DNA from: a bacterium
GTDB taxonomy: Bacteria > JAMCPX01
Direction: 5' to 3'
NCBI GenBank assembly: GCA_021787665.1
Contig: JAJYLN010000002.1
Span: forward strand, 1-64,000
Length of the DNA stretch: 64,000 bases
The position numbers were made by a program, and so were the translations under genes. A model generated the notes under the pieces. That model was not told where the DNA came from and did not search any database. It was given only the letters and a program-made list of their open reading frames with translations. Numbering within the stretch: the first letter of the stretch is position 1; each line of letters begins with the position of its first letter. Of the stretch, positions 47,457-52,958 are shown in pieces.

Positions 47457-47484
47457 GTGAACTCTTTGTTTCGTATAATACTTC

Positions 47485-47514
47485 TTGACATCTACTCTCC
47501 CTTTTGGGTATATA
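47485..47514 (+). promoter_or_regulatory. Promoter for the phase-variable protease gene
   Basis: TTGACA (47485-47490), 18 bp, then TATATA (47509-47514). The leader to the ATG at 47617 would be about 95 nt. Confidence 0.55.
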
Positions 47515-47616
47515 TGATTCAGGGAAACGCAGCATAGGCTTAGCACCTCTGAAGGTTGATTGTTAAAGGCCCTTGAGTGGGCGGGACAATATAGACAATT
47601 GAACAAGGAGGAGTTT

Positions 47617-50485
47617 ATGAAGCAGTCAAAGACTGTGTGTTCGGCACACACACACACACACACACACGCTGTGGTGTACATTTTTGGGGTTAGTCGTTAG
47701 TGTAGTATTGTTTTCTGGCATTTCTCAGGCATCAAGCTATAGTGTTCTTGTCGGAGGCTCCATTAAATCGACTTATTCTTTTATTACCTATGGAGCTGGT
47801 GCAAATCTCCATACGAACGCGAGCATCAAGAACAATGGATTATTCAAGGTAAGCGGAGACGCGGAGATCGTCGGTTCGCTCTTTTCAGCCAGCGGCACCC
47901 ACCCTATCGAAGCGACGGGTAATATTGTCCTACCTGCGCAATATATAACGATCCCTGTACTCTCTCCCCAATGCTGGTCAAACGCAAACTACCGATTTGA
48001 AGGCGGGGCTTCCAATAACAGCGGTTACATCCAGATTTATGACAACAACGGGAGCCTTTTACAAACGATTTCAGGCGGAAGATGGTCTGATCCCTCGGGC
48101 AACGACTGGCAATACAATGCAAATCTTAACAGGTGGCAGGTGGAAGGAGAGAATCCTGATGTGCTCGATGGCATTGTATATTTCGACACTGCATTCAAGA
48201 CTGATGTGCCGGCACTGGACATAGGAGATCCCATGAATGCAGGTATGCTTATAGTAAACGGGAATTTTCAATCGGAATCGGCATTACACATACAGGCCCT
48301 TTTCTCTTATGAGCATGCGATAGTTGTATTCGGAGATGCAGAATTCCACGGTGGCGAGGATGAAGAATCGGAGGCGGAAGGGCATAAAGGCTGGATAGAT
48401 GATTCGGATGAACGCAATGTAGGGTACAATAACCTCATAAAAGGCAGGGTCTATATAACAGGCAACCTTGAAAGCACATCGCCGACCAAGATAGATGGTA
48501 AGCTCACCATTCTTGGCAGCCTCGATACAGAAGGTGCAATGCGGGTCGAATACATGGAAGGTGCGACCAAGGTTGCAAGCTCTATAATTGCACAGCATTT
48601 TTCGCAGCAGGTAACATTAGCAGCGAGTGAGAATTTTTCAGACCCGACAGGTGGCTCGATAAATATGTATATTTTTGCGATGGGTAATGTTTCAATTACG
48701 CCGACGACAAATTTTCTCGATTTAATCAACTCCGTAAGTACCTTTACCGGAGGATCTGTCCTTGTATTGGGTGGAGCGGACGAGACGAGCCCACCTGTGA
48801 CAACGATTTACAATAACTATCCCAATTCAGATATAAAAGGCCTTGTCCAGATGATAAACGCATTGGAAAACAATTATCATGTTAATCTTCAGGATATAGC
48901 AATCACAAATTTTATCCACACATATCCGAATGATTTGTGGGTCACCATAAGCTTAACCGGGACAACATTGGGCACATTTTTATTGAGCAGGGGCGCACAA
49001 TTTTATTCCATGACAACAGATGGCCTCAATCAATATCTGCAGCGGATTGATTCGTTTAAAACAAATTATCCTCAGCAATGGCTGCAGTACCTGCAGGCTT
49101 CTCAGGCGCAATGGGATTATTTTTTGCAAACAGGCACGACAACTCCTGAACAGACTCTTTCCCTGCAATCTCTTGGAACATTGAGTATGCTGGACGAGTA
49201 TTCGACACCCACGGTGTGCAGTGAAGATCCAGTAATAACCGATGATAATACGTGTATTCTGACACCTGTTACACGGCACGATGTACCGGGATATTTTGAC
49301 ACCCATTTTTATAACAACAATCTCACGCCAGATGAAGTCTTAAAAGCAACTATACTCTTTTCACCTTCTGACAAGCTTTTTTCTCCTCTTGTAGGAACAA
49401 GTCAGGTTTATAATCCACCATCTGAAAACACACCAGAATATCTAGAGTTATTTGGCTTTAATTATGAGCAATATAATTCCCAGGATTACGATAATGTACC
49501 GGCTTACGGAGACAATTTATGTGGCCCGACAGCAGGTGCAGCGGCTCTGGGATATTTTGGTCTTAATGGGTCAACGGGATATGAGTGTGTATATACCCAT
49601 GATCTTGCATCGATACAAGCCAACAGTTCTACCTATTTCACGGTAGTTCCCCCGTCTGTTCAAACTGTCGATTTCTATCCGTATCAAACATCTGCGTATT
49701 CATCTCCCTACTTTGAATATGATATGTGGCCATACCTTATGTTAGAGGGAGATTTGGTTGGACCTATGAATACGAATAATTGGTGGTATTTATTAGGGGC
49801 AAGCATGCCCGGCACAGATCCATCGGATTTTGAGTGGGGCATTGAGAGTTACCAGATGCGCGATTACACAGGCAAATATTATAACGGTTGTTTTAATAGT
49901 GGCGATGAAATAGACCCTACATCTGTTTGGGGGTACGTTCAGACTGAAATAAATTGGGGACATCCTGCAATAGTTCTTTTCCCTAACGCTTATGGTGAAC
50001 CACATTATGTTACAGCCTTTGGTTATCATCAGGAGCACTATACCAATGTCTGTAAAACATACTGGACATGGTGTTTGCCTGATATAAAGTGTCAGGTAAC
50101 TACATGTTATCCATGTTTCAATGCAGATTCGTTCTGGATCACATACTCAGATAACCAAGGTGATACAGACGTAGAATCTGCGATAGAGTATGCAATACCG
50201 GTCACTGGGTATGCAGGTACAGGTTACATCTATACGATGGCCGGCGGATATTGGGCGCCACTGTATATATGGATACATCCGAATGGTGGAACATGTAATA
50301 ACTGTGTTGCAGTTCCGCCGGTGATTTTGGGCGGTGGAGGTGGTGGCGGCGGTGGTAGTGGAGGAGGGACTTGTACTACCAGTATGGTTCCATTATCACT
50401 ATCCATTACTGTTAGCAATATACTGATGTTATGTTTGCCTGGCATATTCATCTTGATTGTAAAAAAGAGGACAAAAAAGTCATGA
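47617..50485 (+). CDS. C39-like cysteine protease with C-terminal anchor; out of frame at a (CA)11 tract
   Basis: The only good start is ATG 47617, 5 bases after AAGGAGGAG. From it the frame reads through (CA)11 (47645-47667) and stops at 47698. The long frame is +1; it opens at a TTG (47684) with no ribosome-binding site and loses half its signal peptide. Twelve (or nine) CA units would join them, giving an MKQSKTV start, a His-Thr repeat and the hydrophobic LGLVVSVVLFSGISQASS. The body has a C39-like peptidase: DNLCGPTAGAAALG (Cys ~613), EPHYVTAFGY (His ~774) and a later FWITYSDNQG. The tail is a Gly run, a Cys, a ~22-residue helix and KKRTKKS. The gene appears OFF in this sequence. Base use is A+T-rich. 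Confidence 0.75.
47645..47667 (+). repeat. (CA)11 simple sequence repeat in the 5' coding region
   Basis: Eleven uninterrupted CA units plus a terminal C lie 28 bp inside the coding sequence. Dinucleotide tracts of this length slip readily, and each gain or loss shifts the frame. One extra unit or two fewer would join the start codon to the main frame. Confidence 0.9.
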
Positions 50486-50610: not shown

Positions 50611-51705
50611 ATGAGAAGCCATAAGCTGAAATTATTGTTGGGTCTATCGGCCATATTCCTTTTTTTAAATTGTCCATGGCAAAATGAGGAGGCACAAATG
50701 TTTCCTGAAATAGACCGTTGGTGGCTCGATACTGCATCGGATCAGCTCTATGTAGTAGCGTCTTATTTGGGTGTGTTTAATAACATAAGTACTACAAATG
50801 GAAGCATCCTGCCGGCTCGTTTTATTTCAGCGCTTTCACCTACACCGACTACTTTTTACATTCAGGGAGGCCTGTGGCTCGATGCCGCATCAGACCAAAT
50901 GTATGTCCTCAGCTCCCCACCGAACTATTATAATAGCTATAGCAGCATCCTCGTTTTTACCGCTGCAAGCACCATAAGTGGGGATGTTGCCCCTGCTCGT
51001 GTTATCTCAGGGGCGAAAACCGCATTAAACTCTCCTAATGCCTTATGGCTCGATTCTACATCGGATCAACTTTATGTAAGTAGTGGAGGCAATAGTGTTG
51101 GAAATGGTATTCTTAATGAAGGTGGCAATTGCATCCTCGTTTTCACCGATGCAAGTACCATAAACGGGGATGTTGCCCCTGCTCGTGTTATCTCAGGAAC
51201 AACAACCGGGTTAAAATCTATTGTGGCCTTGTGGGTTGATGCTACATCAGACCAGATATATGCCCTTAGTTCTCGGCCACCTTCTTATTATAAGACAAAT
51301 AGCAGCATCCTCGTTTTCACCGATGCAAGTACCATAAGTGGAGATATTGCCCCTGCCCGTGTTATCTCGGGCACGACAACCGAGTTGAGCGAAGCTAGGG
51401 CCTTCTGGCTCGATGCTGTATCAGATCAGCTCTATGTTAGCAATGGAGGTAATAACAATATCCTCGTCTTTAATAATGCAAGTACCATAAACGGGGATGT
51501 TGCCCCTGCTCGTGTTATCTCAGGAACAACAACCGGGTTAAACTTTCCTGATGCCATGTGGCTCGATACTGCATCGGATCAGCTCTATGTAAGCACTAGA
51601 ACAAGCAAAGAGATAAGTTCAAAGGGTAGCCGCGTACTTGTTTTTACCCTGGCAAGTACAATAAATGGTAACATAGCCCCAAGCCGAATCATTGGTCTTA
51701 AATGA
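50611..51705 (+). CDS. Six-repeat propeller lipoprotein A
   Basis: 364 residues with a lipobox-like FLNC (Cys21). The mature protein is six repeats of about 50-60 residues; each has LWLDxxSDQLYV, a spacer with SGGN, ILVFTDAST, then INGDVAPARVISG. This suggests a six-bladed beta-propeller made of one unit per blade. Parts of the repeats are identical in DNA: 51151-51215 and 51478-51542 match over 65 bp. Function is unknown; surface display is likely. A close paralogue follows 246 bp downstream. Confidence 0.72.
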   Translation: MRSHKLKLLLGLSAIFLFLNCPWQNEEAQMFPEIDRWWLDTASDQLYVVASYLGVFNNISTTNGSILPARFISALSPTPTTFYIQGGLWLDAASDQMYVLSSPPNYYNSYSSILVFTAASTISGDVAPARVISGAKTALNSPNALWLDSTSDQLYVSSGGNSVGNGILNEGGNCILVFTDASTINGDVAPARVISGTTTGLKSIVALWVDATSDQIYALSSRPPSYYKTNSSILVFTDASTISGDIAPARVISGTTTELSEARAFWLDAVSDQLYVSNGGNNNILVFNNASTINGDVAPARVISGTTTGLNFPDAMWLDTASDQLYVSTRTSKEISSKGSRVLVFTLASTINGNIAPSRIIGLK

Positions 51706-51950
51706 GATTCATTGAAATGGTTGGCAAGTCACAGATGCATCGCTACGGCAAGTTATTGCTCGGGTGGGAAAATGGGGTCACCCAATTTCTACACACATTC
51801 ATTTTTGGATTTAAGGTGTGCCCTTTTTCTCTTCAGCTTCAGGAGGACTTTCAAGTTCTCCCTGTAATGAGGTTACTTTGGCTTGGAAATCCGGTAATGA
51901 GTAGCAGAGAGGGTCAATTATAGGTGTATGTATGCTATGGAGAAAGATGA
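51706..51950. other. Spacer between the two propeller paralogues
   Basis: An in-frame stretch of about 70 codons (51702-51923) lacks any recognisable domain, shows no ribosome-binding site and reads like non-coding sequence, so I do not call a gene. No other structure is evident. Confidence 0.4.
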
Positions 51951-52958
51951 ATGAACAGTCCTAAAAGAGGGTTAGTTTTACTATTTTTTAGCTTAATCTT
52001 ATTTGAAGGCTGTCCACCTTCATACGAGGCCTCACTTGCACCTCCCCTGTGGAGTATATGGCTTGATTCGGCATCCAATCAGCTCTATGTGGGGAAGGGC
52101 GGTAGTATATTTGTATTTAATGACGCCAGCACGGCAAATGGAAATGTATCTCCAGCCCGCGTTATTTCAACAACTGGGTTAACCCCCCAGACTTTATGGC
52201 TTGATTCGGCATCGAATCAACTCTATGTGGGTAGTATTTACACCAATAGTATCCTTGTGTTTACCGATGCAAGCACGGTAAATGGAAATGTATCTCCTGC
52301 TCGTGTTATTTCAACAACTGGATTAGCCACCCAATCTTTATGGCTTGATTCGGCATCCAATCAGCTCTATGTGGGGAACATTCATAGCAACAGTATTCTT
52401 GTGTTTACCGATGCAAGCATGACAAATGGAAGTATATTGCCTGCTCGCATTATTTCAGGAACAATGACTGAATCAAATCTCACCTTTACGCTGTGGTCAC
52501 CAACTGCTCTCTGGCTTGATCCGGCATCGGATCAACTCTATGTGGGAAACGTAGGAGGTATAAGTACCTTTCGAGGTATCCTTGTGTTTACCGCTGCAAG
52601 CATAGCAAATGGAAGTGTATCTCCTGCCCGTGTTATTTCAACAACAACTGGGCTATCCTCCCAGTCCTTGTGGCTTGATCCGGGATCGAATCAACTATAT
52701 GTGAGTGCGGGTAATGGGATAGCTGTATATAATGACGCCAGTACGACAAACGGAAATGTATCTCCAGCCCGCGTTATTATTTCCACTATAACAGCCGATT
52801 CAGGTCCCCCTGTTAGTTTGTGGCTCGATTCAACATCCGATCAACTCTATGAAGCTTGTAACTCAGTTTCACATAAGGGGAAGCCCTATATTCTCGTATT
52901 TGACAATGCGAGTACAATTAACGGCTATGTTACACCGTCGAGGACAATATATCCATGA
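51951..52958 (+). CDS. Six-repeat propeller lipoprotein B
   Basis: 335 residues, a paralogue of the preceding lipoprotein. Lipobox LFEGC (Cys21) is followed by six repeats with LWLDSASNQLYVG, ILVFTDAST and NGNVSPARVIS. The blades differ from lipoprotein A mainly by N for D in the SNQLY motif, so the two diverged after duplication. The Cys-Pro junction after the lipobox is shared by both. No catalytic motif is seen. Confidence 0.72.
   Translation: MNSPKRGLVLLFFSLILFEGCPPSYEASLAPPLWSIWLDSASNQLYVGKGGSIFVFNDASTANGNVSPARVISTTGLTPQTLWLDSASNQLYVGSIYTNSILVFTDASTVNGNVSPARVISTTGLATQSLWLDSASNQLYVGNIHSNSILVFTDASMTNGSILPARIISGTMTESNLTFTLWSPTALWLDPASDQLYVGNVGGISTFRGILVFTAASIANGSVSPARVISTTTGLSSQSLWLDPGSNQLYVSAGNGIAVYNDASTTNGNVSPARVIISTITADSGPPVSLWLDSTSDQLYEACNSVSHKGKPYILVFDNASTINGYVTPSRTIYP

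Follow-up and report, generated by a model that had tools for sequence, protein, structure and literature searches.

Surface proteins that are switched by repeats are known chiefly from host-adapted pathogens. In the sap system of Campylobacter fetus, which uses one expression site, DNA inversion recombines different surface-protein genes with a common 5′ expression region. In Helicobacter pylori, CT repeats in the 5′ part of oipA and related outer membrane protein genes, where the signal peptide is encoded, set these genes ON or OFF (PMC10564699). The opa genes of Neisseria carry CTCTT repeats where the leader peptide is encoded, with several copies per genome, each in its own state (PMC3960869).

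Here, we analyzed a window of 64,000 nucleotides from genome G000 (assembly of 2,249,429 bp [2.25 Mb] in 35 contigs), in which a start codon leads into a CA tract (locus G000:C17; Table 1). The phylum set used for comparison comprised nine genomes, all of one family and with one genome per species, including the sister species of G000 (G001) and a genome of another genus (G002). Like oipA, the locus carries a dinucleotide tract in the 5′ part coding for a signal peptide, and the number of units decides the frame; however, the unit is CA rather than CT, the downstream proteins are mutually unrelated, and a structured leader and start together form a portable cassette. Length variation of oipA is documented between isolates, whereas here it is known between cassette copies, with one genome per species. 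As in opa, the repeat lies in the leader-peptide-coding region of multiple copies per genome with separate states, but opa is a single protein family with a pentameric repeat, whereas here the protein bodies differ and the repeat is a dinucleotide. The joining of a common expression start to different surface-protein bodies resembles sap, except that each copy here has its own start, in contrast to the one expression site that sap uses by DNA inversion. What sets the present family apart is the portable cassette, a leader predicted to hide the ribosome-binding site, and a seam at the tract.

Reading frames and repeat statistics of the CA tract

The initial annotation described a Shine-Dalgarno sequence and an ATG leading into (CA)11 and then a stop, and the sequence agrees. 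It placed a 930-codon frame in the +1 phase, starting at a TTG that lacks a ribosome-binding site; the phase and the bare TTG stand (no Shine-Dalgarno sequence precedes position 47684), but the frame is 933 codons long. Upstream of this TTG, as far back as the previous stop of the long frame, there is no ATG, GTG or TTG. When the unit number of the window tract was changed in silico, the frame opened by the ATG spanned 954 codons with two units fewer, 24 with one fewer, 27 as assembled, 956 with one more, and 26 with two more. The ATG is thus fused to the long frame by one more CA or two fewer, as had been claimed: 9 units give 954 codons and 12 units give 956, while 10, 11, and 13 units all stop within 27 codons. 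The locus has several of the features expected of a contingency locus. The tract lies in the 5′ coding region, its unit length is not a multiple of three, unit changes toggle in silico between the short frame (27 codons) and the full one (954 to 956 codons), its length is far beyond chance expectation, and related loci differ in unit number, with both in-frame and out-of-frame copies.

Table 1. Features of the switch locus in the window
Feature	Positions	Strand	Basis or remark
Shared cassette (upstream region, leader, Shine-Dalgarno sequence, ATG, and the initial ~12 codons), with its end within the CA tract	47466..47654	+	86% identity with G001:C48, −151 to +38
TTGACA, possible −35 element	47485..47490	+	Read in cassette copies; in most copies
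Leader RNA, predicted CCUC arm pairing with the Shine-Dalgarno sequence	47545..47619	+	Covariance model, E = 7.6e-5; folds
Shine-Dalgarno sequence AAGGAGGAG	47605..47613	+	Strong; read in sequence
Assembled ATG frame of 27 codons, closed by TAG (OFF)	47617..47700	+	Sequence; TAG at 47698
GTGTG-loop-CACAC hairpin just past the start, 3′ arm prolonged by the CA tract	47634..47650	+	Predicted fold
(CA)11C tract, longest dinucleotide run of G000	47645..47667	+	Repeat listing; starts 28 nt past the A of ATG
Signal-peptide hydrophobic part and likely cleavage site (LWCTFLGLVVSVVLFSGISQA), +1 frame	47669..47731	+	Alignment with G004 and G003 starts
Open frame of 933 codons from a TTG that lacks a ribosome-binding site	47684..50485	+	ORF; pN/pS 0.19 versus G004, 95 codons from tract end
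Peptidase_C39_2-like segment, under the Pfam cut-off	49823..50038	+	Pfam, subregion only
C-terminal GGGTC + hydrophobic + KKR tail	50360..50482	+	Similar tails in L005, L007, and G004:C32

We compared the tandem repeats of the whole G000 assembly with chance expectation from a first-order model. A dinucleotide run of 23 bp is expected ~1e-6 times in this genome. Five dinucleotide runs of at least 12 bp were found (1.8 expected), four of them of at least 14 bp (0.13 expected). The five longest dinucleotide tracts (C17, 23 bp; C9, 18 bp; C7, 15 bp; C23, 14 bp; C2, 12 bp) are all CA, and all occupy the equivalent position in copies of one cassette. Across the nine genomes of the phylum, every tract of (CA)7 or longer lies inside a cassette copy (C7, C9, and C17 in G000; C19 and C112 in G001; C144 in G002). 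The CA tracts of cassette copies span 12 to 26 bp and stand in various reading phases. Loss of MutS was rejected as the cause of the long tracts, as MutS1 is present in 9/9 genomes.

The longest other repeat of G000, a 22-bp GAGAG pentamer tract (G000:C32:51739; L189), lies within a larB-like gene and puts the two halves of that gene in different frames; the gene is intact and repeat-free in G002 and G004. This tract is possibly a second switch or else marks a broken gene.

A dispersed cassette family and its leader RNA

The initial annotation regarded the switch as a single locus, a view that has to be replaced: the window locus is one member of a dispersed family of cassettes with a predicted structured leader. 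The cassette consists of about 150 nt of upstream leader and about 38 nt that open a signal peptide (~190 nt in total), and copies were found in G000, its sister species, and a second genus. Common to the copies are the upstream region, the leader, a strong Shine-Dalgarno sequence, the ATG, and a signal peptide of the pattern MKQSKAVCSTHTHT..VLCAVLGLV..LLLFS...A, whose n-region the CA tract encodes in part. A GTGTG-loop-CACAC hairpin is predicted in many copies ~17 nt past the ATG, with the CA tract prolonging its 3′ arm. No convincing −10 element accompanies the TTGACA, and a consensus scan gave no promoter; a scan of viral contigs for the start sequence gave no match.

Frame states were called for tract-bearing copies with enough sequence (n = 6). 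Two were ON, namely, G000:C23 (14-bp tract; 1,067 codons with BNR and PQQ-like propellers) and G001:C19 (26-bp tract). The other four were OFF: the window locus, G000:C7 (with an additional T directly 3′ of the tract), G001:C112, and G002:C144 (25-bp tract ahead of a 731-codon lipoprotein-like frame). This 2/6 proportion equals the random-drift expectation among three phases. Copies C9 and C2 of G000 were left out of the count because directly after the CA tract they enter an identical 113-nt sequence, both at contig ends (L021:1-116 and the end of L123); this sequence is probably a repetitive or mobile element attached at that point. Six of the nine G000 copies lie less than 500 nt from a contig end, a zone that makes up 1.6% of the genome; this agrees with downstream parts that are repeated and beyond the assembler's resolution.

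Pairs of copies were similar up to the tract and unrelated after it. This was the case for C17 and G001:C48 (86% identity from −151 to +38), C23 and C9 (91%, −145 to +40), C2 and C23 (87%, −158 to +38), and C112 and C48b of G001 (94%, −185 to +38). The reverse was seen for G001:C19 and C112: their leaders are unrelated (44%), yet the two share 97% identity from a point inside the tract onward. Because homology between copies often starts or stops at the tract, cassettes have been joined to different secreted-protein bodies, with the joints at the CA tract or close to it. The copy G001:C48 (L114:10517-10700) has a short CA tract, and its frame ends right past this tract, as if cut by an insertion.

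We judged leader folding sequence by sequence against a background of start sites. In most leaders, the minimum-energy fold was a long irregular hairpin in which a CCUC-type arm ~60 nt upstream pairs with the Shine-Dalgarno sequence. By an explicit rule, such pairing occurred in 19/21 leaders compared to 23% of 373 GGAGG start sites of the same genome, although the leaders are related and do not amount to 21 independent tests. RNAalifold gave no consensus structure on a MAFFT alignment of the leaders, which in our view is due to misaligned stems, and no Rfam family matched the leader above the gathering score. The covariance model retrieved more leader copies in other genera, mostly ahead of predicted secreted proteins. 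The leader recurs with or without a CA tract in several genera of the phylum (window 47545-47619 and L163-L188). Taken as modeled, the leader may be an RNA that controls translation by hiding the ribosome-binding site.

Predicted protein, relatives, and selection on the frame

The description of the product as C39-like barely holds. A subregion matched Peptidase_C39_2 in Pfam just under the cut-off (E = 1.4e-4; 22.9 bits against a cut-off of 24), but the whole protein as query gave no match to this family. Among 386 genomes searched, the C39-like region was present only in G000. The N-terminal region had a faint match to bactofilin (E = 0.043), and single-sequence structure predictions scored low for both regions (pLDDT of 31 for the C39-like region and 36 for the N-terminal region). 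The C-terminal tail is probably an anchoring or sorting signal; exosortase (PF09721) is absent from all nine genomes, and the tail does not classify as a PEP-CTERM or exosortase substrate. The gene has a GC3 of 0.41 and the next two genes have values of 0.39 and 0.35, far from those of flanking housekeeping genes (0.77 and 0.69), which indicates a compositional island. The two downstream genes (50611-52958) are lipoprotein-like, with repeated LWLDSASNQLYVG-type motifs, and relatives of them adjoin the orthologue in both G003 and G004.

Homologues that lack the repeat and start at the TTG, named in the initial annotation as evidence that would speak against a switch, were not what we found. In G003 and G004, the homologous gene opens in frame at this cassette ATG, with a tract that is short or interrupted (CACACACACTCACATACA in G004); therefore, the ATG and not the TTG is the conserved start. 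Over the 94 to 95 codons past the tract, the window frame had a pN/pS of 0.19 versus G004 and 0.20 versus G003. Two further OFF copies gave similar values past the tract (G001:C112 versus G004:C32, 0.24; G000:C7 versus G004:C53, 0.27 [0.198/0.743]). These ratios show that the post-tract frames were kept by purifying selection since the lineages split, which does not date the OFF state itself. In G003 and G004, the orthologue has shrunk and carries a frameshift: ~88 N-terminal residues are followed by the C-terminal tail in another frame, and both remnants are conserved between these two genomes (pN/pS of 0.16 and 0.26). The same loss of the gene middle is seen in two genera (L005, G004:C15; L006, G003:C18). 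A profile search of genome contigs gave G003 as the sole match.

A probable frameshift switch and its alternatives

Given the layout, the restriction of the CA tracts to cassettes, the mixed phases, and the conserved frames, a reversible frameshift switch is the likeliest reading of the locus. Judging from sequence, we put the probability at roughly two-thirds that (CA)11 is a slipped-strand phase-variation switch of a secreted protein, with presumed slippage within the population and presumed on/off expression. The contingency-locus layout proposed at the outset gained support from the further cassette copies, their varied phases with two ON and four OFF, and the ATG-starting relatives. Replication slippage would alter the CA number by whole units, and each such change would bring the start codon into the frame of the secreted protein or take it out. 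The assembled allele would be OFF, whereas 9 or 12 units would yield a preprotein of 954 to 956 amino acids with a full signal peptide. The tract would end a cassette that fronts several unrelated secreted proteins in the genus of G000 and another in a second genus, with a separate tract length in each case, and the leader RNA would conceal the ribosome-binding site and thereby control translation.

Some observations count against a switch. MutS1 is found in all nine genomes, and MutS should damp dinucleotide slippage; slippage may be slower here than in organisms that lack MutS. Several cassette copies are degenerate (G000:C6, G000:C33, and G004:C56b), G003 and G004 have only reduced, frameshifted orthologues, and two ON copies out of six equal neutral drift. 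The degenerate copies, the orthologues without the gene middle, and the presence of MutS would also suit a recent pseudogene, in which the tract drifted out of frame and the copy is decaying like other cassette copies. We consider this unlikely in view of 933 stop-free codons in a conserved frame and of long tracts that are maintained exclusively in six copies from three genomes, two of these copies being in frame. Assembly may also miscount dinucleotide repeats, and the real tract might have 9 or 12 units and the gene simply be expressed; this is less probable still, since OFF copies occur in three independent assemblies and include 15-bp tracts (C7 and C112) that short reads span easily. We give hardly any credence to the 27-codon frame being a regulatory upstream peptide with the protein made from the TTG by coupled re-initiation: the TTG lies 14 nt ahead of the stop of the ATG frame, a distance over which re-initiation can occur, but it has no Shine-Dalgarno sequence, a start there would produce a signal peptide without its positively charged end, and relatives and in-frame copies use the cassette ATG.

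If the frameshift switch is taken as the preferred reading, the CA tract might in addition serve as the seam at which the expression cassette is recombined onto different secreted-protein genes. We advance this double use tentatively, as a possibility with the odds somewhat against it; if true, the lineage would reshuffle the set of surface proteins that it makes as well as the control they are under. The locus would belong to a small switch family of an uncultured phylum, in which each switch takes the form of a portable cassette that carries a structured leader RNA. Such a family would offer a concrete setting in which to ask how random surface variation benefits uncultured bacteria, e.g., through phage escape or niche sampling. 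The leader itself is a candidate for a new cis-regulatory RNA of secreted-protein genes in the phylum.
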